48,342 bases of DNA, taken from positions 1-48,342 of the forward strand of contig DAIDDL010000016.1 in NCBI GenBank assembly GCA_027309085.1, in the 5' to 3' direction. A program made the position numbers and the translations under genes. Each line of letters begins with the position of its first letter. The first letter of the stretch is position 1. The notes below the pieces were generated by a model, which was not told the origin of the DNA, did no database searches, and worked only from the letters and a program-made list of their open reading frames with translations. Shown one piece after another: positions 25,933 through 41,617 of this stretch. The stretch comes from Sulfobacillus sp. (GTDB taxonomy: Bacteria; Bacillota; Sulfobacillia; Sulfobacillales; Sulfobacillaceae).

Positions 25933-26007
25933 GCGCCCGTAGTGAAGAGGATATCACGCAGGCCTCCGAAGCCTGAAGCAGGGGTTCAAGTCCCTTCGGG
26001 CGCACCA
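25933..26007 (+). tRNA. tRNA-Arg (anticodon CCG)
   Basis: The acceptor stem GCGCCCG (25933-25939) pairs with CGGGCGC ending at 26003. The discriminator A is at 26004 and the encoded CCA is at 26005-26007. The anticodon arm CAGGC-CTCCGAA-GCCTG places CCG at positions 34-36, giving Arg. The T-arm contains GGTTCAAGTC. It is followed at once by a terminator. It marks the border between core genes and the accessory island, and tRNA 3' ends are common integration sites. Confidence 0.95.
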
Positions 26008-26054: not shown

Positions 26055-26934
26055 GAAAAATACGCCCGCCATCCCCACTTTCATCCCCACCAACCAGCGA
26101 ACAGGAAAATATCGCCTGTGCGAGAGGCGCTTGGTGGAGAGGTGGAGGAGCCTTTCGGGAGGACCGATGGACATAAAATCCGATGATTATGGAGGCTTTG
26201 TCATAGTCGTTTTCTCCGATATTCGGTGAGGAGGGTCTCCAATTTGATTACGGCAGAACCGATAGTCTATGGATGGATTTGGCGCACTGACTCTTAATCG
26301 GCGGGTGCGCGGTTTGAGTGAATGTGCGCTCACCACATTTAAACTCACAGCCCGCAATGGATTGCGGATTTTTTGTTTTGCTCGGATCGTCCCCAAAAAT
26401 CGCTCCATCCACAAGAGCGTATGAACACAATGATGCGACATTCATTTTAGGGATATGGGCGATACGATCCAAAGGCAGCTCTGGGGCATAGAAAGATGCC
26501 ATGATGGCGAGAGCAATATCCACGGATGGCTTTTTAGTCTTCGAAGATCCATTTTGGTTTTGCCGATGTCGAACGAACCGAAAAGCCATTCCTTCGTTCA
26601 CACCTATCCACACGAATGGCTTAGCCAGGCACCCTTGTTAGCATCTCTCGATCCTGACGAAGAAGATGAGATCGGTTGCTGCCCCATGTGCCATGTATAA
26701 TATATGGAGAAGACCTTCCACAAGCTCAGCCCGTGCATTGAAGAGCTGGTTTTAGAAGTTCCTGAAGAATACCGACGTCTTGTCACGGTAACAAACCAAC
26801 AGGGACATGGAGACGATGCCCATAGCCTGCCGATGGATAATTGTGTCCTTGCACTAGAGCCAAAGTCCTTAAGTGGGGACAACCGAGTGGTATGTGAAGG
26901 CATTGGCAGCAAGTCAAAAAAACGCAGGGAGACT
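26055..26934. other. Decayed region between tRNA-Arg and the GNAT gene
   Basis: No recognisable gene is seen. A small hairpin CCGCAAT-GG-ATTGCGG (26351-26366) followed by a T-run is a likely terminator on the plus strand. The frame of the following GNAT gene stays open upstream to 26704 but that part (KLSPCIEELVLEVPEEY...) does not look like acetyltransferase. The same frame continues above a stop at 26698-26700 to 26455, suggesting fragments of an older gene. Confidence 0.35.
26351..26373 (+). terminator. Small hairpin with T-run
   Basis: CCGCAAT and ATTGCGG are separated by two bases and followed by ATTTTTTG, consistent with a weak intrinsic terminator. Confidence 0.5.
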
Positions 26935-27804
26935 TTGACGAAGCGCACGCCTGTGGTTATTGAATCTTACCGTAATGAAGATGAGGCACGGTGCTTGGGT
27001 TTCCTGAAACAAGTCTTTGGTGATGATAGCGTCTCGCAAACCTATTTTCGCTTTGGGGAGAGCCACACGTTTCTCGTCATCTTGGATGGTGTCTTAGTCG
27101 GCCTGGTGAGCGCGTGGCAGAACTCCATACACCCGTTTAGCCTGCGGAGTGGTATTGCCGTATTGCCATTGTACCGGCACCGGGGCATTGGAGAGATGTT
27201 GTGGGAACGCTTATGGCAGAATAGTGGTGCGGCGCTACCATTAATTACCTCACTGTGGGAGACTCAAAGCGAGGGCTATCATTTCGCACTCCAACACGGC
27301 TTTGCCGAAATTCGCCGAACATATACAACCGAGCTTCAGGTTGAAACGGTTGACGTGTCGGTGTTGGATTCTGTGTATGGCGGGATGTTCAAGAATGGAT
27401 ACCGCATCGTGTCATATGCCGACGCAGACGACGGTGAACGCACTAAGATGGCCGTCGTATTGCAACAAGTCTACAGAGCCACGCATACTGTCAATCCTCC
27501 AGCCGCTTTTTCACCCCTTGACTGGCGGGCGTTAGCATTTCCGGCCGATTTGCTTCACTGGGGGAGCTTTGCGGTCATGCATGGCGACGAATGCGTCGCC
27601 ATGGCTCTGTTGCACCACGGTACCCGAAACGGGTATGTTGAACGCGGTTGGCGTGGTGTGGCTGAGTCCCATCAGCATCTGGCCCGCGCCTTAATGGTTG
27701 TGACGGCCACACGACAAATCGCCGAGGCCGCTTCCCGGGGCATCCCGCACATCTCTTTGGAATGCGACTCGACAGATCCGTGGAGCGGTTATGTTCGGGA
27801 GACA

Positions 27805-27812
27805 TTTCCGTT
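27805..27812. repeat. Target-site duplication, left copy
   Basis: TTTCCGTT lies immediately outside the left inverted repeat and is repeated exactly at 29014-29021. Confidence 0.9.
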
Positions 27813-29013
27813 CATGCATCCTAAGATAAGTCAGGTTGGGGGTCCGAAGTAGAGGAAACCTGCTATAATTTAGATACAGTTGGATGCTTGGGGGCGTGGT
27901 GATGACCATTCTGGAGTGGGCCGATAAGTTTTCCACCGACGAAAAGTGCCGGGATTATCTTTTCCAACAGAGGTGGCCCGAGGGGTTTTTGTGCCCCAAA
28001 TGTCAGGGACAACACTACTGGACAGTTCAGCGGTCCGAACGGACCGCTCCCGTCTATGAATGTACCCAGTGTCACCATCAAACCTCGGTGACCGCCGGGA
28101 CGCTCTTTCATCGCACCAAAGTAGCTTTGCGGCTCTGGTTTATGGCGATCTTCATGGTGGGCGTCGATAAAGGGGGCAAGTTCGCTCTCGCCCTAAGCCG
28201 TGAATTAGGACTGCCCTATGTGACGGCCTGGCTGTTGCATCATAAAATTCAGCACGCCATGGCCGATCGCAACCGCCGCTATCAACTTGGAGGTTTATTG
28301 GAACTCGATGATGCGTAATTTGGCGGCATTAGCCACGGACTCGGGAAGCAAGGCCGGGGCACGGACCAAGATCCGGTCATCGTGGGCGTGAGTCTGAATG
28401 CGAAGAGCCATCCACGATATGTCTTTTTGGAAGCGGTTCCCGACCTCAAGAATGAGACCCGTCGTGCTCAACCGGCGTGTCGAGCCTTTGGGCGTCTGGC
28501 GCACGGATGGGGCGGCCGCCTATGCCGCCGCAGCCAAAACCCATCACGCCGATCATGAAGTGACCCTCAGTAACGATCCCGAGGCCGCACACGTATTCCG
28601 GTGGATCATTACCACCATCCGGAATGCTAAAGCCATGATTGATGGCACATTTCACGGGCGCGGACGCGCCCGTCGCCAACTCTATCTCGACGAGTTTGCG
28701 TACCGGTTCAATCGTCGCGGGTATGGCACCCTCATCGCCGACCGTCTCCTAATGGCGTGCCTCACGACCACTCCGCACCCCTACGGCACTTAACCCAGGC
28801 GAGGAGAGAGTCGATTTTAGCCGACAAATCTTCGGGATAAACTCAGGATGACACCGAGTGTCATCCCTTTAAGAAAAGTGGGCCAAAAAATCGCAGAATT
28901 GCCCACGGGGTTGATCGACCTGACAACTCAGCGAAAATCCCCACGATATTTTCGTGTGCCATTTTTATCCAGATAATGCTATCCCTACAACCTGACTTAT
29001 CTTGGGATGCATG
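27813..29013 (+). mobile_element. IS1595-family insertion sequence, complete ends, dead transposase
   Basis: A 26-bp terminal inverted repeat with one mismatch is present at 27813-27838 and 28988-29013, both reading inward from CATGCATCC. The element is flanked on both sides by the 8-bp direct repeat TTTCCGTT (27805-27812 and 29014-29021), the expected target duplication for this family. The total length is 1201 bp. The only gene inside is a transposase with a nonsense codon and a frameshift, so the copy cannot move without help. It sits inside the 3' part of a GNAT gene. Confidence 0.92.
27902..28793 (+). pseudogene. IS1595-family transposase, nonsense + frameshift
   Basis: The N-terminal part (27902-28318) has the family zinc ribbon (CPKC...CTQC) followed by TSVTAGTLFHRTKVALRLWF and ends in LLELDDA. 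The next codon, TAA at 28316-28318, should be TAT: FGGISHGLGKQGRGTDQDPVIV continues in frame, matching the usual LDDAYFGG of the DDE domain. That frame holds to about 28455 (HPRYVFLEAVPDLKNE). Homology then jumps to another frame (VVLNRRVEPLGVWRTDGAAAYA ... MIDGTFHGRGRARRQLYLDEFAYRFN) ending at 28793. One nonsense and one frameshift therefore separate the catalytic residues. A TATAAT at 27864-27869 lies upstream. Confidence 0.88.
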
Positions 29014-29021
29014 TTTCCGTT
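29014..29021. repeat. Target-site duplication, right copy
   Basis: This is an exact copy of TTTCCGTT immediately outside the right inverted repeat. Confidence 0.9.
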
Positions 29022-29381
29022 TCTTCCATCCCCAGCGTGGATTACGATGCGGCACGACAAGAGATGTCAGCTGTTTATATAACGCTTGAGGCCTGCTTGC
29101 GCTCGCACAAAAACCTCATGTCGTCCCCATTGGATCAAGTTCATAGTGTCTGCTTGGCTGACGAAATTGATACGCGTCCTGAACGGAATGTCCACGTAAT
29201 GATGGGGGGGCGTTCTGTCGAAGCTTGCCAAAGCAGACGTAGAGATTTTGCGCTATCAGTGGGCGTTAGTACATTAGCACATGCTTCCCGATCAGCCAAT
29301 TTTGAGCGATCATTTGTGCTTTGGGGAATGGCTTCGCTTCATACACAACGTGCTGCCTTTGCTCAGAATCAGTAGCTGTAG

Positions 29382-29657: not shown

Positions 29658-30053
29658 TTCGACAAAACCTCGCGAGTTTTTTTGCGATCGACGTTCGCGT
29701 GGCGTCAATTTGTCCGAATCAACGGTTTCTCCATCCCCTGCGCCGCATGTGGATGATGTAGGAGTGATTCCTTTTTTGAGGTTCTCAAGACTGTGTCTCG
29801 CAATACTTAAACGACAACGGGAAATGTTATCAACCTTTTAGCCATGCAGTTTCTAGACACTTTGCCGAAGCCACGGCGATATAACTAAAGCTGTTTGGAA
29901 GGTCGAGGCGCTTTGCTGCAGTTTTTGCAAGGTTGTCGCGTCAAGTTGTCCAAACAGGTAAAACCAAAGAGACTTAGTATTTCTATGATTTATTCTGTAT
30001 CGCTGAAGGAAATCCTTAATAAATGTAGAATGTCAAGGTATGAGGATGGCGTA
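29658..30053 (+). promoter_or_regulatory. Upstream region of the BREX operon
   Basis: About 395 bases precede brxF. TTGAG-GTT-CTCAA near 29785 is a small inverted repeat, and the final 60 bases are A/T-rich (AGTATTTCTATGATTTATTC), as expected for a promoter. The frame of brxF remains open upstream to 29895, but that part lacks family similarity. No regulator gene is present next to the operon. Confidence 0.4.
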
Positions 30054-30539
30054 ATGTCGAAAGGCGGATTTATGGCGAAATCGGCGGATTTGGGTAGGGC
30101 AATGGACTTGATAGGCCAGATAAGATTACTGCCTCAAGCCATGGTGGTCATTGCGGGACCACATGGTAGTGGTAAAACGCGATTAGCCAAAGCTGTGGCA
30201 GAGAAGGACCTCGGTAGATATTTCAATTTGAGTCTGACAATGGCCAGTTACATGATGGCGGGTAACCTGGCTAACTGGACGGTCGATTTCGTAGTCAATC
30301 GCCTATCCCCTGTGGGGACTGAGAAACCATTGATTTTAGATAACATTGAGGCAGTTTTTCAACCGGAGCTCCAATTGAATCCATTAAGCTGGTTCTTGCA
30401 GATAGCTCGCACTGTGCCCTTGGTGGTGGTTTGGCCTGGGGGCGTGTTCCATGGAGAGTTCGTCTATTCGACGCCTAACCGACCGGATTATTATCATCAG
30501 CGAGACCTGTTGGTCGTTGTGCTCAACCTCGACGTATAA
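30054..30539 (+). CDS. brxF: BREX type 3 P-loop protein BrxF
   Basis: From ATG 30054 the product has 161 residues, the usual BrxF size of about 150; in-frame starts at 30030 and 29895 are alternatives. It has a Walker A GPHGSGKTRLAKAVAEKDLG near residue 35 and a Walker-B-like PLILDNIEAVF. The end is VVLNLDV. It is a small ATPase-like component unique to type 3 BREX, of unproven biochemical role. It is the first gene of the six-gene operon, 30 bp before brxC. A GAGGAT lies just before the start. Confidence 0.8.
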   Translation: MSKGGFMAKSADLGRAMDLIGQIRLLPQAMVVIAGPHGSGKTRLAKAVAEKDLGRYFNLSLTMASYMMAGNLANWTVDFVVNRLSPVGTEKPLILDNIEAVFQPELQLNPLSWFLQIARTVPLVVVWPGGVFHGEFVYSTPNRPDYYHQRDLLVVVLNLDV

Positions 30540-30569
30540 TAAGCATGACAAGCGAAGGAGTCATAAATC

Positions 30570-33500
30570 GTGAAATATGGAGACCTGATTCAATTTAAGC
30601 CAATTGCTTCAGTCATTAAAGTACAAGAAGCGGACCAACAGCAAAAGGCCATGGAATTAATTGATACCTATGTGATGTCTGACCGCATGGCGCGAGAAAT
30701 TCAAAACTACATCGTGCCGCATCTGCAGTTTGACAATATGCATGATAACCGCGGCCTACTCATTGTTGGGAACTATGGGACGGGCAAATCCCATTTAATG
30801 GCAGTGCTATCGGCTGTGGCTGAAAATGCTACGATGCGCGAGCGGTTGAACCATGCCGGTGCGGCCGATGCATTGACGCCGATTGCCGGCAAGTTTCATG
30901 TGGTGCGTATGGAGCTTGGCGGCACCCAAATTACCGTGCGGGATGCGGTATGTCGGGAAATTGAACATGGGCTAAAGGCATGGGGCATCGACTATCACTT
31001 CCCGGCGATTACGGAGATCACCAACAACAAAGAGAGCTTTCTCGAGATGATGGGGAGGTTCCATGATCTGTTTCCCGAACAAGGTCTCTTGGTGGTTATT
31101 GATGAGTTGTTGGACTTTCTTCGTACACGACACCAACAAGAACTCACCCTCGATTTGAATTTTTTGAGGGAACTGGGTGAATTGGCTACGGAAAGTCGGT
31201 TTCGTATTATGGCCGGTAGCCAGGAAGTGCTTTTCGGCAATGCCCAGTTTCAATTCGTGGCGGATTCGATGCAGAGGGTGGCTTCACGGTTTCAAGAAGT
31301 CCACATTATCAATGACGATGTCTCGTACGTTGTCGCGCACCGCATTCTGCACAAAACACCAGAACAAAAATCATGGATTCGGGGCTATTTAGAGCCTTTC
31401 AGCCCGCTGTTCGAGCCGATGGCCTTGCGCATGGACCAATACGTTGACCTGTTTCCAGTCAATCCAGACTTTTTCCGTACGTTTGAGAAAATTAACCTCG
31501 GCGAGAAACGGGAAATCTTAAGGACCGTTACCGACGAAATGCAGGACTTGCTCGGCCAGAACATCGCGAAAGATCGTTTGGAGCTCTTGTCCGTGGATCG
31601 GTATTGGGACTATCTTGCTCGAAATTCCGCGTTTAATTCCAATCCCAACTTTCAACAGTTGCGGCAGCGTGTGGAAACTGCCATAGACAAGATTCGGGCT
31701 GGTATGGCTCAATCCACCTATATTCCTATGGCCGTGCGCATCATAAAAGGGCTGGCAATTCACCGCTTAACAGTGGGCTTCGACGTACGTATTGGTCTTA
31801 CCCCCAAAGAATTGAAAGAATCCTTGGCGCTCTATGTTCCGGTTGCCATGCCGGACCCCGAATTTTTGGAAAAGACCATCGAATCCATTCTTCGGGACAT
31901 GACTCGCGTTTTGGGCCATCAACTGGTGATGGTGAATCTCGAGAATGGTCAATACTTTATCGATATGGGGGACTATGTAGACCTCGATGCCGTACTGCAG
32001 GAAAAGGCGGGAACGCTCGACGATGATAATCTGAACCAATACTACTTTGATGTGCTGGCCACCCTGCTGGAAAGAAAAGATCCCTACGTGCCAGGGAGCC
32101 GGATTTGGCGCTTGGACACGGCTTGGCTGTCTCATCATATCGAACGTCCTGGGTACCTGTTCTTCGGTACCCCGGCGGAACGTACGACAGCTCAGCCTCC
32201 CCGCGAATTCTATTGTTACGTGCTTCAGGCATTTTCGTCGCCTAAATATCAAGATGACTGTCGCGACGATGAGGTTTTCTTTCGCATGCATAAGATGGAT
32301 GAAGAATTCGCCGACATGATTCGTTACTACGCAGCGGCGCGGGAATTAATGGCCAGTTATGCGAAGTCCAGTGCTGCGCGAAGTCACTTCGAGGACATCG
32401 CAGCACGTACCCTCAAAGGGCTCTCGCAGTGGCTCCAAGAAAACTTTCGCACTAAGTTTCAGGTCATTTATCAAGGACAGCCCGCTTCCATCCGGACAGG
32501 TCATCTGCCGAATGACGCGACCTTGTTGGAGGTGATTTCCGCGGTGCTCGCACAATGTCTTGAAGAATCATTTGAACGGCAGCTTCCGGAATATCCCGTC
32601 TTTCAAGGGTTTCAGAATCCCGTGACTCGTACCAATATGCGGGAGTATGTGCAGCATGCCTTGAACCGGATTGCTGGCACGTCTTCATCTAGTAGTGGAA
32701 CCCGGGTGCTTGATGCTCTGGAACTGATGGAAAATGATAAGATGCGACCGCGCCGGTCGCCCTATGCACAGTGGCTACTCGGGTTAATGGAGGAGGCTCC
32801 AGCTCCTCATCATGTGGTCAATCGAAAAGACATTCTGGAAATACAGCAGACACGAGGCGGGGTCGAAGATATCGCCTATACCCGCGAGTTTCATCTGGAG
32901 CCCGCACTACTCATGGTGATTTTCTCCGCCCTCATTTGGAGTGGCGATGTGGTAGTGACGGTAGGCAAAGAAAAGTATGGCCCCGAACGCCTGGGAGACT
33001 TCAGTAAACTTACGGGCGGACAGTTGATGCACTTTAGTCATGTGGAGAAGCCCAAGGGGGTAGCGAGAAGCAGCATTCGAGCGCTCTTTGAGTTCTTTGA
33101 TATGCCGGCTGCTTATGTAAATGATGAGAGCAAATGGGAGGACGTGCTTCCCACACTGCAAGGCAAAGTCGGTGATGCGATCAATGCGACCATTGCCCTG
33201 CAGCAATTCTGCAGGCAAGACATGGGATTTTTTGGTCAACCATTGCTGACTGAGGAGAGCCGGAAGGAATGGCTGAAACGCATTGAAGACGTCAAAGCGT
33301 TTCTCGAGCAGGTCCAAAATTACAACACTGTGGGCAAGCTCCGAGCTTTTAACCAGGATGCGGATGAGGTGAATGCGCGCTCAGACGACTACCGCGTGAT
33401 CGCGCGCGAACTCGGTACGTTGAAGTCTGCTTATGAAACGTTGAGTCCGTTAGTCAGCTATCTGGAGACGGCAGCGCAAGTTATTCCGGCCGAGAGCCCG

Positions 33501-34247
33501 TGGCTTCAACAGTTGTCCCAGATACAGAAAGGGTTTATTGATCGAGTGGCCACTGAGGCGCCAACTGTCATAAAGGCCCAGTTGGAAGCACTGCGCACGT
33601 CCTATGGCCAAACATACCGCGCTTTGCACCAACGCTACCGATTGAACAAAGCCGAGGACGACCGGCGTGGAAAGCTCACGCAAAGTGCGGAATGGCAGGC
33701 GCTAGATACCCTGAGTACCGTGGGGATATGGCTTGACGGAAAAGGGTTCCATGAACTCCGTAGTGCGCTCGTGGACTTGAAGGTGTGTACACGCCTGACG
33801 GAGGCAGATCTCAAAAGTCAGCCAGAGTGTCCTCATTGTCATTTTAAGCCGTTGATAGAAGGACATGTAAATAAGGATCTGGACTGGTTCGAATCTCAAG
33901 TGGCCACGATCTCCAGCACATGGGCGCAGCGCTTGGAAGACGCGTTGTCAGACCCGGGCGTGACCGAGACCTTGCGCTTGTTTGATGGGGAAAACTGCGA
34001 GGCGATTCAGTCTTTAGCCGCCACCGGGAAGCTGCCGTTGCCGCTGCCACGAGGGTTTGCCGATGATTTGAAGATTGTGCTCCAGGGGATTCAGGCGACG
34101 GAAATTAGTGTTATGCATCTGCTCAAGCGATTGGGCGACGGAATTCCATTGAAGCCCGATGAGGCAAGGGCCCGTCTTGAGGAGATTCTTGAGGAATATC
34201 TGGTGGGCCATGATCCCAATCGCGTACGCATTATTTTTAGGAGCTAA
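30570..34247 (+). CDS. brxC: BREX ATPase BrxC/PglY
   Basis: The 1225-residue protein starts at GTG 30570 with AAGGAG upstream. An N-terminal AAA+ ATPase has Walker A GNYGTGKSHLM near residues 67-77 and Walker B LLVVIDELLDFL near residues 172-183, followed by an LRELGELATESRFRIMAGSQ sensor region. A long helical middle and a zinc-knuckle-like CPHCHFKP near residue 1087 complete the BrxC/PglY (DUF6079-type) layout. In BREX systems it is the largest subunit, an ATPase required for blocking phage DNA replication and for host methylation. It is followed 17 bp later by pglX. Confidence 0.88.
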   Translation: MKYGDLIQFKPIASVIKVQEADQQQKAMELIDTYVMSDRMAREIQNYIVPHLQFDNMHDNRGLLIVGNYGTGKSHLMAVLSAVAENATMRERLNHAGAADALTPIAGKFHVVRMELGGTQITVRDAVCREIEHGLKAWGIDYHFPAITEITNNKESFLEMMGRFHDLFPEQGLLVVIDELLDFLRTRHQQELTLDLNFLRELGELATESRFRIMAGSQEVLFGNAQFQFVADSMQRVASRFQEVHIINDDVSYVVAHRILHKTPEQKSWIRGYLEPFSPLFEPMALRMDQYVDLFPVNPDFFRTFEKINLGEKREILRTVTDEMQDLLGQNIAKDRLELLSVDRYWDYLARNSAFNSNPNFQQLRQRVETAIDKIRAGMAQSTYIPMAVRIIKGLAIHRLTVGFDVRIGLTPKELKESLALYVPVAMPDPEFLEKTIESILRDMTRVLGHQLVMVNLENGQYFIDMGDYVDLDAVLQEKAGTLDDDNLNQYYFDVLATLLERKDPYVPGSRIWRLDTAWLSHHIERPGYLFFGTPAERTTAQPPREFYCYVLQAFSSPKYQDDCRDDEVFFRMHKMDEEFADMIRYYAAARELMASYAKSSAARSHFEDIAARTLKGLSQWLQENFRTKFQVIYQGQPASIRTGHLPNDATLLEVISAVLAQCLEESFERQLPEYPVFQGFQNPVTRTNMREYVQHALNRIAGTSSSSSGTRVLDALELMENDKMRPRRSPYAQWLLGLMEEAPAPHHVVNRKDILEIQQTRGGVEDIAYTREFHLEPALLMVIFSALIWSGDVVVTVGKEKYGPERLGDFSKLTGGQLMHFSHVEKPKGVARSSIRALFEFFDMPAAYVNDESKWEDVLPTLQGKVGDAINATIALQQFCRQDMGFFGQPLLTEESRKEWLKRIEDVKAFLEQVQNYNTVGKLRAFNQDADEVNARSDDYRVIARELGTLKSAYETLSPLVSYLETAAQVIPAESPWLQQLSQIQKGFIDRVATEAPTVIKAQLEALRTSYGQTYRALHQRYRLNKAEDDRRGKLTQSAEWQALDTLSTVGIWLDGKGFHELRSALVDLKVCTRLTEADLKSQPECPHCHFKPLIEGHVNKDLDWFESQVATISSTWAQRLEDALSDPGVTETLRLFDGENCEAIQSLAATGKLPLPLPRGFADDLKIVLQGIQATEISVMHLLKRLGDGIPLKPDEARARLEEILEEYLVGHDPNRVRIIFRS

Positions 34248-34263
34248 ATAAGAGGAGGTTCCC

Positions 34264-37116
34264 ATGGACGAGTTAGACTTACGATACGTCGATAACAAGA
34301 AGACGGGTCCTGTGACCTGCTTGGATCGTGTGTTTGAGAGTGATGAGGAACGGCGTGAGTTCTTCCGTGAACGCCTACGGGAGCAACTGCCGGAGCTCAG
34401 GACCATGCCCGGCTTCTCGATTGGCGCGGATGAGGATATCTTGGCGCTCTCGGACCCACCATACTATACTGCATGTCCCAACCCGTTTATTCCAGAAATT
34501 GTGGCGGAATGGGAAAGGCAGCGTCCGGAGGTTGACGAGCCGTATCATCGCGAGCCCTATGCCGCCGACGTCTCCGAGGGAAAAAATGATCCAATTTATA
34601 ATGCCCATTCGTATCACACCAAGGTGCCCCACAAGGCTATCATGCGCTATATTCTGCACTACACCAATCCCGGGGATATTGTCTTCGATGGGTTTGCCGG
34701 AACGGGCATGACGGGGGTGGCGGCTCAGTTTTGCGGAGATAAATCTGTAGTGGAATCGCTGGGCTATAAAGTCGAAGCGGATGGGACGATACTCCAAAAC
34801 GAAGAGGGGCACTGGGTCCCCTTTTCCAAACTTGGTGCGCGTCGCGCTATTTTGAATGACCTGAGCCCCGCTGCCTCATTTATTGCATATAACTACAACA
34901 CACCTGTCGACCCTGCCCAATTTAAGCGGGAAGCGGAACGGATTCTCAATGAGATCGAACAGGAATGCGGATGGATGTACCTTACGCTCCATAGCCCCAC
35001 AGCTGGACAAATATCCCAAGCAGTCGAGCTATCCAAGACTGATCCCCACCATATTGCACAGCATAAGGAGCTGCATTGGGGCCGCATCAACTATACCGTG
35101 TGGTCTGATGTCTTTGTGTGCCCGCATTGTGCCGAAGAACTGGTCTTTTGGGAGGCCGCCGTGGACAAGGAAGCGGGTAAAGTCCGCGATGCTTTTCCCT
35201 GTCCGCATTGTGAAGTAGAAGTGACCAAACGGGTTCTAGAAAGAGCATGGACCACGTTTTACGATGATGCGATCCAAGAAACGGTGAAACAAGCCAAGCA
35301 GGTTCCGGTCCTCATCAATTACTCCGTGGGGAAAACCCGCAAGGAAAAGAGCCCGGATACGTTCGATTTGGCGTTGTTGCAAGCCATTAGTGAAGAACCC
35401 ATTCCGTACTGGTTTCCGACGGATAGGATGCCGAATGGAGACGAAAGCCGGCGAAACGATGCGATCGGGATAACGCATGTGCATCAGTTTTATTCTCGCC
35501 GCAATCTAAGAGGTCTTGCCGCCTTCGGCGAAACCTCCCGGCAGGAGCCACAGGTATTTTCATTGGTAGGAGATCTCCTTCCCCGAGCAAGCAAGATGCA
35601 TAAGATTGCAGTGAGCAGACTAAACACCAACCTATCAAAAACAGCAGGTGTATTAGCGGGAACGCTTTATATCCCTTCGAATCAAATAGAATATTCAGCA
35701 TTATCCATGCTTGAGTTTCGTATTCGAGACGTTTCTGGATATCAAGCATTGACGTTCAAAAGTGATGTCCACAAAAATTCCTCGGTCGAAGCTGGGAGTT
35801 TTCATCACTGGGCTGGGAAAAGCAATTCAATTAATTACGTTTTCGTTGATCCCCCCTTTGGGGCCAACATCATGTATTCCGAGCTAAACTTTCTCTGGGA
35901 AGCGTGGCTTAAAGTTTTTACTAACAATGAACAGGAAGCCATTGTCAATAGAGTTCAAGGCAAGGGGCTACCCCAGTACCAGGCGTTGATGGCAGATAAC
36001 TTCCGGGAAGCCTTTCGCGTCTTGAAACCGGGCCGGTGGATGACGGTCGAGTTCAGTAACACACAAACCAGCATTTGGAGCGCGATCCAACAGGCGATAC
36101 AGCAGGCAGGATTTGTCATAGCCAACGTGGCCGCATTAGATAAACGGCAGGGAAGTTTTAAAGCGGTGACGACAACGACAGCTGTGAAAAAGGACCTCGT
36201 CATTTCGGCGTATAAGCCGTCGGAATCCATGGTTCATCGCGTGGAGGAGGGGCAACGCAAGGATGCCGGGGTTTTGGCTTTCGTCGATGAGCACCTGCGT
36301 CAATTGCCCGTGTTCTTGGGCCGGAAGGGGCAGGCTGAACCGATTGAGGAGCGGACGCCACGCAGCATCTATGACCGGTTTGTCGGATACTATGTGGCGC
36401 ACGGATGGCCTTTGCCGATTACCAATTCGGCAGACTTCCAACGCTTGTTAACGGAACGATATCCCGTTAGGGATGGCATGGTGTTTCTGGATGATCAGGT
36501 TTTAGAGTATGATCAGAAGCGGATTTTGGTCAAGGAATTTGTGCAGGCGGATTTGTTTGTCTCCAATGAGTCTTCGGCGATTGAATGGATCCGTCAGCGG
36601 CTTATGACGAAGCCACAAACGTACCAAGACTTGCAGCCAGCGTTCATGCAGACGATTCAGCACATTGACAAATATGAGCAGTTGCCCGAGCTTCGGAACG
36701 TATTGGAGGACAACTTTCTTCAATACGATGGGGGATCGGTGATGCCGGAGCGCCTTCTGAGTTATCTCCGCGCGAACTATCCCAAGTACCGGGGTGATAC
36801 CATCACGGATGAGATGCGGCAGAAAATGAAGGAATGCTGGTATGTGCCGGATCCAAATCGGATGGCCGACATTGAGAAGATTCGTCAAAGGAAGCTTTGG
36901 AAGGAATTCGAAGGCTATATCGAAGAATCGCGGAAGAGCAGCAAACGGTTGAAAATGTTTCGATCCGAGGTGGTGAAGGCGGGATTCCAGAAGCTCTGGA
37001 CGGATAAGGATTACGCCACCATTTTGCTGGTTGGTGATCATCTGCCACCAACGGCTGTCAACGAAGACATCTTCCTGACGCAATTTACTAGCAACGCTCG
37101 GGTGATGTTGGAGTGA
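34264..37116 (+). CDS. pglX: BREX DNA methyltransferase PglX (type 3, DUF1156-like)
   Basis: The 950-residue protein (ATG 34264, AGAGGAGG upstream) begins with a DUF1156-like segment SDPPYYTACPNPFIPEIVAE near residue 63. The SAM-binding motif FDGFAGTGMTGVAAQ is near residue 141. Two CPHC zinc knuckles follow at about 286 and 313, and the catalytic DPPFGANIMYSELNFLWEAW is near residue 529. It should add a methyl group to adenine at a non-palindromic host site, marking self DNA. Its stop overlaps the next start by 4 bp (GTGA), so the genes are translationally coupled. Confidence 0.88.
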   Translation: MDELDLRYVDNKKTGPVTCLDRVFESDEERREFFRERLREQLPELRTMPGFSIGADEDILALSDPPYYTACPNPFIPEIVAEWERQRPEVDEPYHREPYAADVSEGKNDPIYNAHSYHTKVPHKAIMRYILHYTNPGDIVFDGFAGTGMTGVAAQFCGDKSVVESLGYKVEADGTILQNEEGHWVPFSKLGARRAILNDLSPAASFIAYNYNTPVDPAQFKREAERILNEIEQECGWMYLTLHSPTAGQISQAVELSKTDPHHIAQHKELHWGRINYTVWSDVFVCPHCAEELVFWEAAVDKEAGKVRDAFPCPHCEVEVTKRVLERAWTTFYDDAIQETVKQAKQVPVLINYSVGKTRKEKSPDTFDLALLQAISEEPIPYWFPTDRMPNGDESRRNDAIGITHVHQFYSRRNLRGLAAFGETSRQEPQVFSLVGDLLPRASKMHKIAVSRLNTNLSKTAGVLAGTLYIPSNQIEYSALSMLEFRIRDVSGYQALTFKSDVHKNSSVEAGSFHHWAGKSNSINYVFVDPPFGANIMYSELNFLWEAWLKVFTNNEQEAIVNRVQGKGLPQYQALMADNFREAFRVLKPGRWMTVEFSNTQTSIWSAIQQAIQQAGFVIANVAALDKRQGSFKAVTTTTAVKKDLVISAYKPSESMVHRVEEGQRKDAGVLAFVDEHLRQLPVFLGRKGQAEPIEERTPRSIYDRFVGYYVAHGWPLPITNSADFQRLLTERYPVRDGMVFLDDQVLEYDQKRILVKEFVQADLFVSNESSAIEWIRQRLMTKPQTYQDLQPAFMQTIQHIDKYEQLPELRNVLEDNFLQYDGGSVMPERLLSYLRANYPKYRGDTITDEMRQKMKECWYVPDPNRMADIEKIRQRKLWKEFEGYIEESRKSSKRLKMFRSEVVKAGFQKLWTDKDYATILLVGDHLPPTAVNEDIFLTQFTSNARVMLE

Positions 37117-39818
37117 GCCATTGGGTGTATCTCCGCGAATCGCGTCAGCGAGGGCGGGTGATCCAGCGCGAAAGGGTTTTTGGCGAAGAATTCGCCCACG
37201 TCTGGATACCTGAGACGGGGAATGTTCTTCGTGTGCCCATTGAGGCCATCGAGGACATTACCTCACCCAGTCTAGAGGAGATTCTGTACCGCGCTTATGC
37301 TTCGCGCATTATCCAAGCCCTCCCGGGAGATGTGCTGCTTGCGCCCTTAGACAGCCGGGTAGTGCCACTGCCCCATCAGATTGAGGTCTTAGACAGGGTG
37401 GTCCGGGAACACCACATGCGGCTGTTGTTAGCAGACGAAGTCGGGCTCGGAAAGACCATTGAGGCGGGATTGGTCATCCGGGAGCTTAAGTTACGTCGAA
37501 AGGTGAAGAGAATTCTCATCGTGGCCCCGAAGGGACTCCTTCATCAATGGGCGAATGAGTTGGCACTACACTTTGGAGAATCGTTTCGCGTGGTGGGTGG
37601 TGAGGATCTGCGGGGCGGCCATGATGTATGGTCTCAACATGACCAACTCATTGTGTCCCAAGACGGCATTAAACCGTTGGCGCGGCGCCGAGGATGGGAG
37701 ACGGAGTGTATTGCTCAGTATAACCAGCAGCGATATGAAGCAGTGATGGCCGCGGGTTGGGACCTCATTGTGATCGATGAGGCGCACCGCTTGGGGGGGA
37801 ACACCGAGACCGTGGCCCGCTATCGACTGGGCCAGGGACTAGCGGCAGCCGCACCCTATTTGCTCCTCCTCACGGCGACTCCACATCAAGGGAAATCCGA
37901 TCAGTTTCGCCGGCTCCTCGGGTTGTTGGATGCGGAGCGATTTGCCGAGCAAGAAAACCTGAGTCCAGAGTTGGTGCGGCCCTACGTGGTGCGCACGGCA
38001 AAGCGTGCAGCCGTAAACGCTGATGGAGCCTCGTTGTTCCAACCGCGGCAGGTTGAGATGGTTGTGGTGGATTGGGAAAGCCCTCGATATGCCATTCAAC
38101 GAGAACTCTACGAAGCGGTCACCTTATACGTTCAACAAGGATACAGGCGAGCGGTGGCAGCCAAGGCTTTCACGGAAACATTTCTGTTGATTCTTATGCA
38201 GCGTATGGTCACATCCAGTCCTGCTGCGGTTGAACGCGCGTTGCGGAGACGGATTAGCACCATGGAGACATCCGCTGAGGAAGAAGATTGGACCATCAGC
38301 GAGGAGGAAGAGGTGGAAGCGGCGCTCGATGATGCGGGGTCTTTGCGTGATCGAACCTCCATTGAGGCGCTCGTGCAACTGGCGAGTCAAGCGGTTCAAA
38401 GTCCGGATGCTCGGGTTGACCGGTTGATTGCCTTGATTGATGACATTCGTCATGGAGAATCGAGTGAGACCAAGTTTTTGATTTTTACCGAGTTTTTGCC
38501 GACGCAAGAGCTCTTGGCCCATGTCCTAATAAACTATGGCTATCAGGTTAGCATTTTGAACGGGCAGATGTCGATCGCTGAGCGTCTGCGCATGCAAGAT
38601 GAATTCCGCCAGGCTAGTCAATTTCTCATTTCCACAGATGCTGGCGGTGAAGGATTGAACCTACAATTTGCACATGTTGTGGTGAACTACGATTTGCCAT
38701 GGAACCCTATGCGAATTGAACAGCGGATCGGTCGCGTAGACCGCATCGGGCAGCGCCATTTGGTGCGCGCCTTTAACTTCTCCATTAAGGACACGGTGGA
38801 GTTTCGTGTGCAGGAAGTGCTGCTAGATAAGCTGCAGCGGATTTTAGCGGAACTTGGCATCGATAAATTGGGGGACGTGTTGGACTCGTCGGGACTCGAC
38901 GTCGACTATCAAGGGCTCTTTGTCAATGCCATTATGAATCCAGACCAGACGGATACAGAACTTACATGCTTGGTTGATAGTGTGCGGGACACGGCGGAAC
39001 AATCCCGCCAACTGAATCAATCGATTGAAGCAGGACCACCTGACCTCGACCGATTAAAGGCGATTTTACATCATCCACTCCCCGGTTGGATGGCGTCGAT
39101 GGTACAGCATTATGTCATGGCGCGCGGGGGCGAAGTCCAGCGGACTACGTTGGGGTGGACGATTACCTTCCCTAACGGAACGGTATTGCCCCATGTGGTC
39201 TTTAGGCCCGATAGCGACGATGTAGAGCAAACCTATTTCGCCTTGGATCATCCCGAAATCCAGCGAATGCTGGAAGAGTTGCCGCATGAAGCACTGGGGG
39301 CACCGTTGGCGCGACTGGCCTCGACACAATTTACGAAAGGACTGCGCGGAATATGGAGTCTATGGGAACTCCGACTGTGGTACGGTCAAGAGAACGACCG
39401 ACGTATTCTCCCGATGTTTTTATCTGATGATGGCCGCCTCTTTCAGGCGTCGGCTCTTCAGATCTGGGAGCGGATCACGCATCTGAGTTTTCAAGGCGAG
39501 GTGGACCTATCGAGTCACATGCTTGACGAGGAATCTTGGCACAAGCTCTTTCATCTCGCGGAGCAGCAAACAGAACCTCTCTATCGCGAGCTTCAGGGCA
39601 TACATATCGTGCGCCTACAAGAGGAGCACGTGGCGATGGAGCAGGCGTTTCGTGTTCGGCGTGACATGATTGGGCGAGTGGGGTTGGCTAACGTGCGAGC
39701 GGTGCGTTTGCGACGCTTAGAGGACGAGTACGCGGTCCGATTGAGGAATCTTGAGGACGCGGCTACGGTTCATCCCGAACTCCGACCTATTCTGATACTC
39801 GAGGTGGATGCCTCGTGA
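37113..39818 (+). CDS. brxHII: BREX type 3 helicase BrxH (SNF2/DEAD-like)
   Basis: The 901-residue superfamily 2 helicase has Walker A LLLADEVGLGKTIEAGLVI near residue 105, a DEAH box VIVIDEAHRLGG near 221, LLLLTATPHQGKSDQF, and the C-terminal helicase motifs TDAGGEGLNLQ and EQRIGRVDRIGQ near 535. This is the RapA/SNF2-type arrangement found in BrxHII. It probably translocates on DNA within the BREX complex. It begins at a GTG overlapping pglX and ends overlapping pglZ by 4 bp. Confidence 0.85.
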   Translation: MSHWVYLRESRQRGRVIQRERVFGEEFAHVWIPETGNVLRVPIEAIEDITSPSLEEILYRAYASRIIQALPGDVLLAPLDSRVVPLPHQIEVLDRVVREHHMRLLLADEVGLGKTIEAGLVIRELKLRRKVKRILIVAPKGLLHQWANELALHFGESFRVVGGEDLRGGHDVWSQHDQLIVSQDGIKPLARRRGWETECIAQYNQQRYEAVMAAGWDLIVIDEAHRLGGNTETVARYRLGQGLAAAAPYLLLLTATPHQGKSDQFRRLLGLLDAERFAEQENLSPELVRPYVVRTAKRAAVNADGASLFQPRQVEMVVVDWESPRYAIQRELYEAVTLYVQQGYRRAVAAKAFTETFLLILMQRMVTSSPAAVERALRRRISTMETSAEEEDWTISEEEEVEAALDDAGSLRDRTSIEALVQLASQAVQSPDARVDRLIALIDDIRHGESSETKFLIFTEFLPTQELLAHVLINYGYQVSILNGQMSIAERLRMQDEFRQASQFLISTDAGGEGLNLQFAHVVVNYDLPWNPMRIEQRIGRVDRIGQRHLVRAFNFSIKDTVEFRVQEVLLDKLQRILAELGIDKLGDVLDSSGLDVDYQGLFVNAIMNPDQTDTELTCLVDSVRDTAEQSRQLNQSIEAGPPDLDRLKAILHHPLPGWMASMVQHYVMARGGEVQRTTLGWTITFPNGTVLPHVVFRPDSDDVEQTYFALDHPEIQRMLEELPHEALGAPLARLASTQFTKGLRGIWSLWELRLWYGQENDRRILPMFLSDDGRLFQASALQIWERITHLSFQGEVDLSSHMLDEESWHKLFHLAEQQTEPLYRELQGIHIVRLQEEHVAMEQAFRVRRDMIGRVGLANVRAVRLRRLEDEYAVRLRNLEDAATVHPELRPILILEVDAS

Positions 39819-41617
39819 ACGCGAATTGGCGGAGCACGGTATTGAAGCACCTGACTTCGGGAGGGGTGAGGGTACGCGTTATCTCCGACCCCGATGGCTT
39901 GCTCTTGGATGAAGATTTGCTGCAGCAGTTGGAACGACTGAGATTTTCGGTAATGCTTTATGATGACCCGTGGGTTTTTCGGGTGCGCTATGAAGAGGAC
40001 TTTCGTGAGTTGCGTGACTCCGGCCAAGCGACGCCGCGTTTATTGGTGCGCTCTGCCAGCACGAATCTTGATAGCGTACCGTTTGATGTGTTGGATCAAG
40101 CAGAGCCGATTTACCTCTCAGTCGGTCATCTTTTCTCCCATCTGGATCGCCATATCATGGCGGATTTGGATCGACGGTTATACGACCGTGCCTTTCGGGT
40201 AAACAGCTCAGTCGGTTCGGGGCGACTGAATCGCCTAGACACTGCGCTCCGTCTATTACGTGATATCTATTTCGTGGATCCTGAATTGGTCACTAGCCGT
40301 GAGGATGTCTGGGCGCTTATTTCACAAATTCACCGGTGGAGCTACCCGCTCCCCGGGGAGCTCGTAGAGATGCTAGCCGAAATGTTGCGTCGGTGGCAAT
40401 CGGTAGTGCCTGTACCCATGCGCAGTGCCCTCACGTCCCGGCATACATGGGAAGCGGTTTTGCGCCAATCTCTCACAGGTGGCGAGATGATTTGGGGAGC
40501 TCGCTATTGGCTCGGGCTTCTCGGCTGGGATTCAGAAATCGGAGATCAAATCACCCACGTCTCTTCCGTGTTAACTCGGAAACTGCACGAATTTGCCGAC
40601 CAGGAGCACTTCGTCGGACGAGATTGGCTTCAACGAGCGGAGGATATTGCGACCCTGCGACTGGCCGCCTATATGGGGCTCGAGGGCGGCGATGTGCCAT
40701 TACTTCAGGCCTTGGATGAACGATTTGAAGAATGGGTTCATCGAGATTATGGGTTGTTGCAGAGTCTTCCGCCTTATCCCACTCCCGTGATGGTGCATCA
40801 AGTGGTGCACTACATGGAGCATCAGAACGATGTCGCAAAATGGGCCCTCCTGGTTGTTGATGGCATGAGCTATGCGGATTGGCTGTATATCAGGTCGTTG
40901 ATAGACCTCACCGCATATCAGGTCACTGAACGGGCGGTGTTTGCCTGGGTACCTACCATTACGTCGGTGTCGCGGAAAGCCATTTTTTCCGGACGAGTTC
41001 CGCGTGATTTTGGCCAGTCCTTGGGGACGACCAGCGGGGAAGAGAACTTGTGGAGGCAATTTTGGAGTCAAAAGCACCGAGATCCGGCAACGATACGGTT
41101 TCAAAAGACGGCCGACCAGATGAATTTTGACGAGTTACTAGATTCTTTGGACGATGGGGCGTGTGACATCGTTGGATTGGTAGCAAATACCGTGGACGTG
41201 TCCGCGCATTCAACTACAATGGGTACAAAGCAACTTCTTCAAACCCTCAGATTTTGGATCGAAGAACGTCAATGGTTGCCGAAAATGATTGCTGGCATGG
41301 TTGACCAGGGTTTCCAAGTGGTGATTACCAGCGACCATGGGCATGTGCCTGTGGAAGGCATTGGTCGACCGCCGACGGGCGATATTCCCGAGTCCAAGGG
41401 TCAGCGTGTGCAGGTGTTCGGGTCCCAGACACTTCGCGAGCAGGTAGCCGCCGAGTGGGGCACGCCGTGGACGCACTTATCTGGGTTGCCGGCCGACTAT
41501 GTTCCGTTGTTGGCGCCGTCGCGTCAGGCGTATGCGAGCCGAGGTCAGCGGCTTTTGTCTCATGGAGGGGTATCGATGGAGGAACTTATGGTACCGATGA
41601 TAAGGATAGCGCCATGA
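39815..41617 (+). CDS. pglZ: BREX phosphatase-like protein PglZ
   Basis: The 600-residue protein carries the PglZ alkaline-phosphatase-fold core in its C-terminal half: LLVVDGMSYADWLYIRSLI near residue 346, FAWVPTITSVSRKAIFSG, VGLVANTVDVSAHSTTMG, and the metal-binding SDHGHVPVEG near residue 506. PglZ is the hallmark subunit of all BREX systems. The N-terminal half is helical without a known motif. Its GTG start overlaps brxH by 4 bp, and its TGA overlaps the next ATG. Confidence 0.9.
   Translation: MNANWRSTVLKHLTSGGVRVRVISDPDGLLLDEDLLQQLERLRFSVMLYDDPWVFRVRYEEDFRELRDSGQATPRLLVRSASTNLDSVPFDVLDQAEPIYLSVGHLFSHLDRHIMADLDRRLYDRAFRVNSSVGSGRLNRLDTALRLLRDIYFVDPELVTSREDVWALISQIHRWSYPLPGELVEMLAEMLRRWQSVVPVPMRSALTSRHTWEAVLRQSLTGGEMIWGARYWLGLLGWDSEIGDQITHVSSVLTRKLHEFADQEHFVGRDWLQRAEDIATLRLAAYMGLEGGDVPLLQALDERFEEWVHRDYGLLQSLPPYPTPVMVHQVVHYMEHQNDVAKWALLVVDGMSYADWLYIRSLIDLTAYQVTERAVFAWVPTITSVSRKAIFSGRVPRDFGQSLGTTSGEENLWRQFWSQKHRDPATIRFQKTADQMNFDELLDSLDDGACDIVGLVANTVDVSAHSTTMGTKQLLQTLRFWIEERQWLPKMIAGMVDQGFQVVITSDHGHVPVEGIGRPPTGDIPESKGQRVQVFGSQTLREQVAAEWGTPWTHLSGLPADYVPLLAPSRQAYASRGQRLLSHGGVSMEELMVPMIRIAP

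Follow-up and report, generated by a model that had tools for sequence, protein, structure and literature searches.

Genomic context and the interrupted gene

The window, that is the whole analysed stretch of 48,342 nucleotides from a Sulfobacillus genome, contains a putative tandem-GNAT gene that is interrupted by an IS1595-family element of 1201 bp (27813..29013, plus strand). The 5' part of the host gene (26704..27852, plus strand) continues into the left inverted repeat, from which the interrupted ORF gains MHPKISQVGGPK and a TAG stop codon (27850-27852). Beyond the element lies the 3' end of the gene (29022..29082, plus strand), displaced from the rest and closed by the stop codon TAA (29080-29082). 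Upstream of the element the GNAT frame comprises 369 codons without stop or frameshift, the fusion ORF is open as well, and no frame lesion was detected in the part of the GNAT gene before the element or in the part behind it. Since the homology begins near 26959, translation may start at a codon other than the ATG at 26704.

A profile search assigned the first domain of the ORF starting at 26704 to the GNAT family (PF00583, 3.1e-8). For the second GNAT domain the only indication is the predicted fold of the homologue L034, which most closely resembles tandem GNATs such as 7q3a, together with MshD (1ozp).

A gene for tRNA-Arg (ccg) was identified at 25933-26007, upstream of the GNAT gene and of an operon resembling BREX type 3 that lies directly downstream (29895-41617). 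The ORFs of this operon, all of them open, are predicted to encode BrxF (NF033453, 2.3e-21), BrxC/DUF6079, an N6/N4 DNA methylase, an SNF2 helicase and PglZ. The tRNA gene possibly represents the integration site of an island.

Ends of the element and restoration of the host frame

The element is bordered by terminal inverted repeats of 26 nt (CATGCATCCTAAGATAAGTCAGGTTG at 27813..27838, plus strand, and its counterpart at 28988..29013, minus strand) that pair at 25 of 26 positions with a single mismatch. Both are flanked by the same octamer, TTTCCGTT, at 27805..27812 and 29014..29021. A scan of 47,125 start positions in the window for identical 8-mers at a spacing of 1209 detected this site and no other. 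The ends proposed in the earlier note were thus confirmed to the base.

Removal of the element together with one flank yields an open frame ending in YVRETFPFLPSPAWITMRHDKRCQLFI and the stop codon TAA at 29080-29082, as that note had predicted. At its C-terminus the joined frame (PF-LPSPAWITMRHDK) agrees with homologues from other genera that carry no insertion and end in the same motif: PFRPAPTWITLRR (L034), PFSPSPAWVTLKR (L035), PFGPAPTWITLRR (L036), PFAPATAWITMKR (L075) and PFRPAPCWVTFRR (L076). In the alignment DPWSGYVRETFPF-LPSPAWITMRHDK corresponds to DPWSRDVLDRFPFRPAPTWITLRR in L034, DPWSVCLIDMLPFSPSPAWVTLKR in L035, DPWSERIRQWFPFAPATAWITMKR in L075 and DPWAMIQMEAFPFRPAPCWVTFRR in L076. 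More distant but related end motifs were detected in L078, L080 and L081 (AAPCWLTFQR, EPAWVHLVR and RPAWLHLVR, respectively). Beyond L034, L035 and L036 the comparison of C-termini covered eight loci, of which L079 (broken frame), L082 (similar, but continuing past the end) and L085 (a distant sequence) lack a comparable clean end. L072 and L074 lie on contigs equal in length to those of L034 and L035, were taken to be identical with these two genes and were counted once. The aligned C-termini of L034, L035, L075 and L076 provide independent support for the GNAT junction. As a point against the proposed insertion, the joined frame carries the additional residues RCQLFI beyond the end of most homologues.

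The homologues without insertion are located on contigs of metagenome-assembled genomes and share 51% (L034), 42% (L035) and 35% (L036, middle part missing) identity with the window protein. In L036 (4980-5450; G413:C155), which represents a GNAT homologue without its middle, the first domain joins the conserved LECDSTDPWS tail in frame. A class-wide search with L034 matched 12 of 154 genomes including the genome of the window itself, and a protein search against 299 genomes of the phylum (E 1e-8) returned that genome only. On the DNA level the host gene was detected in one of the eight genomes of the genus, again its own, and a protein search gave no match in any of the seven others. The gene is therefore accessory in the genus. 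A further point against the proposed insertion is that no orthologous empty allele was found in these genomes.

The transposase

The 5' part of the transposase gene (27902..28318, plus strand) encodes the zinc ribbon (PF12760, Zn_ribbon_IS1595; 5.4e-13, 49.1 bits against a cut-off of 25.4) and ends at a premature TAA. The 3' part (28398..28793, plus strand), located in a different frame, encodes the DDE domain (PF12762, DDE_Tnp_IS1595, ISXO2-like; 4.3e-11, 43.5 bits against a cut-off of 27). The NCBIfam model IS1595 (NF033547) matches both halves (1.1e-13 and 3.6e-15), each of them below the whole-protein cut-off, as would be expected of a split gene. The assignment to IS1595 made in the earlier note is upheld by these two domains, by the 8-bp duplications and by a 1167-bp relative in another genome of the genus, which is intact, resembles the window element in its ends and is flanked by a perfect duplication.

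Three lesions were identified in the transposase gene. The premature TAA (28316-28318) takes the place of the tyrosine codon of the motif DDAYFGG in relatives, a 5-bp deletion near 28458 shifts the frame, and an N-to-I change occurs at 28608-28610, seven residues before the conserved K. A single intact transposase gene is present in relatives, but the window copy has lost it through stop and frameshift. As judged from its sequence the transposase of the window element is predicted to be dead, a point that the earlier note had missed. The broken transposase marks a decayed copy and bears on the activity of the element, not on its descent.

Some IS1595 subgroups use the motif DDNK, for which a search of IS1595 papers gave no hit. 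Intact relatives of the window element have the DD of VELDDAYFGG or LELDDAYFGG, the D of WRTDG or WRSDG and an N seven residues before K. In the IS1016-type motif (PMC12561309) an E stands seven residues before K. The N was therefore read as the third catalytic residue, so that by analogy the N-to-I change presumably affects the third catalytic position.

Related elements in the genome and the genus

With up to three mismatches allowed, the end motif was located at 24 sites of the own genome; a control with the reversed pattern gave none. These sites include degraded copies and MITE-like pieces. One degraded copy on contig C162 shares 79% identity with the element; partial ones are located on C102, C92, C118, C11 and others. 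An intact transposase was not detected in the own genome, where PF12762 gave three partial or broken matches and none of full length.

The MITE-like elements of 153-156 bp carry the same ends as the window element. Three of the five copies of 153-154 bp are surrounded by exact 8-bp duplications (C44:12310-12463 of the own genome, G000; C92:31094-31246; C100:14896-15049), and the flanks of the two others agree at six (C99:32914-33066) and five (C99:45610-45763) of eight positions. A further copy of 156 bp on the window's own contig (C77:75201-75356) has the flanks TACCGTAA/TACGGTAA, which agree at seven of eight positions, and its ends pair at 19 of 26.

Three contigs, C11, C82 and C118, break off within a sister element whose ends carry GATGAG, and C11 and C82 agree in 72 of 72 bases. 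This suggests that the assembly breaks at a collapsed repeat, and an intact copy may therefore be absent from the assembly.

In the genus, end-motif matches were detected in six of eight genomes, the own genome included, and DNA matches to the element likewise in six of eight. Genome G003 contains 33 end-motif matches (17 forward, 16 reverse), most of them of the form CATACATCCCCAGATAAGTCAGG. A search of the plasmid collection with the element gave no match. Among the papers listed for Sulfobacillus and IS1595 and for MITEs and IS1595, no title or abstract opening mentions the window element.

Age of the insertion

The perfect target duplication had been taken as a sign that the element is young compared with the decay that surrounds it. 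The duplication is indeed perfect and the claim is not shown wrong, but it is weakly founded, as two 8-bp copies hold little information on age. Moreover, it is the transposase itself that is broken in at least three ways, and the GNAT frame shows no lesion on either side. At 5% divergence two 8-bp copies, together 16 bases, remain identical with a probability of about 0.44; this falls to 0.19 at 10% divergence and reaches 0.05 only at about 17%. The perfect duplication thus excludes only an old insertion and appears to leave the age unfixed.

The closest copy, on C102 (91% identity over 550 bases), has TAC at the position of the premature stop, which is thus private to the window element. When the reading-frame differences between both copies were polarised by the copy in G001, 15 changes fell on the window branch, nine of them at third codon positions and ten synonymous. 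Small as these numbers are, they suggest that part of the divergence may have arisen while the transposase gene was still under selection.

Origin and consequences of the insertion

The analysis bears out the earlier note on the element, on its family and exact ends, on the host gene and on the restored frame. We consider it very probable that an IS1595-family insertion sequence transposed into the tandem-GNAT gene, duplicating 8 bp and cutting off the last part of the protein. DDE transposition would have targeted codon 370, counted from the ATG at 26704, and the usual staggered cut of 8 bp would account for the duplication of TTTCCGTT. The window copy would have decayed through private mutations and presumably lost its ability to move by itself.

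Alternatively, the element may already have been dead on landing and, like a MITE, have depended on an intact sister copy that moved it in trans. The same ends are found on the non-autonomous elements of 153-156 bp, three of which have exact 8-bp duplications; this suggests that in the history of this genome the ends alone sufficed, and the sister element with GATGAG ends at the three contig ends is what would be expected for a collapsed repeat. However, C102, C92 and C162, the nearest copies, do not share the premature stop, and a multiplied dead lineage is therefore not indicated; the C11 transposase has a frame lesion of its own, and none of the three PF12762 matches in the own genome is full length. 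We regard mobilisation in trans as rather unlikely. A wider reading, to which we give a similarly low probability, is that the zinc-ribbon IS1595 lineage of the genus keeps non-autonomous passengers, namely the 153-156-bp MITEs and full-length copies with dead transposases, the window element included, and that a small number of intact copies mobilises them in trans.

It seems still less likely that the insertion is neutral or useful, with MHPKISQVGGPK from the element serving as a new C-terminus, its stop codon ending the frame and the fusion protein still working. The 369 open codons and the open fusion ORF agree with such a fusion, but a young insertion would show an intact frame too, and the lost part is conserved in the homologues from other genera. 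In the model of L034 (mean pLDDT 74.5, pTM 0.57, built from four sequences) a strand of the second domain is predicted, with low confidence, at residues 295-301, past the insertion point at about 290, with a pLDDT near or below 52. On the preferred reading, an IS1595 insertion that truncates the gene, the GNAT protein would be without this final strand, as far as the model can be relied on, and the loss probably harms its second domain.

Chance resemblance of the repeats or a mis-assembly, for which no favouring points were found, is next to negligible given the 26-bp inverted pair, the lack of any second pair of identical 8-mers this far apart in the window, the homologue C-termini matching the junction and the ends shared by independent copies.

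The locus adds base-exact ends, the length of the target duplication and a validated target junction to what is recorded of the IS1595 lineage of this genus, and the set of short MITE-like repeats is now tied to that lineage; there is no wider consequence. A small lesson is that the age of an insertion cannot be read from a perfect duplication of 8 bp.

Comparison with known elements

The locus represents an ordinary interruption by an insertion sequence whose family is well known; the transposase is dead, and MITE-like elements are related to it. With the IS1595 family the window element shares both domains, the single transposase gene, the 8-bp duplication and the inverted ends; it differs in its broken transposase and in its ends, which begin with CATGCATCC (CATACATCC in relatives). 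The 8-bp duplication of IS1595 is present, and so is the N-terminal zinc ribbon, which occurs in all IS1595 subgroups but IS1016 (PMC8101967).

The relative of 1167 bp in the same genus (G004:C12) has the same domain order, a comparable length, similar ends (CATACATCCCCGGATA...) and, like the window element, exact 8-bp duplications (CTTGGAAA) on both sides. It is 71% identical over positions 1-905 of the query and, unlike the window element, has an intact frame of 306 residues. ISApl4, which belongs to the IS1016 subgroup of IS1595, resembles the window element in its DDE transposase and its 8-bp duplications, for which A/T-rich sites are preferred, but differs in its length of 712 bp and its perfect ends of 14 bp (PMC12561309).
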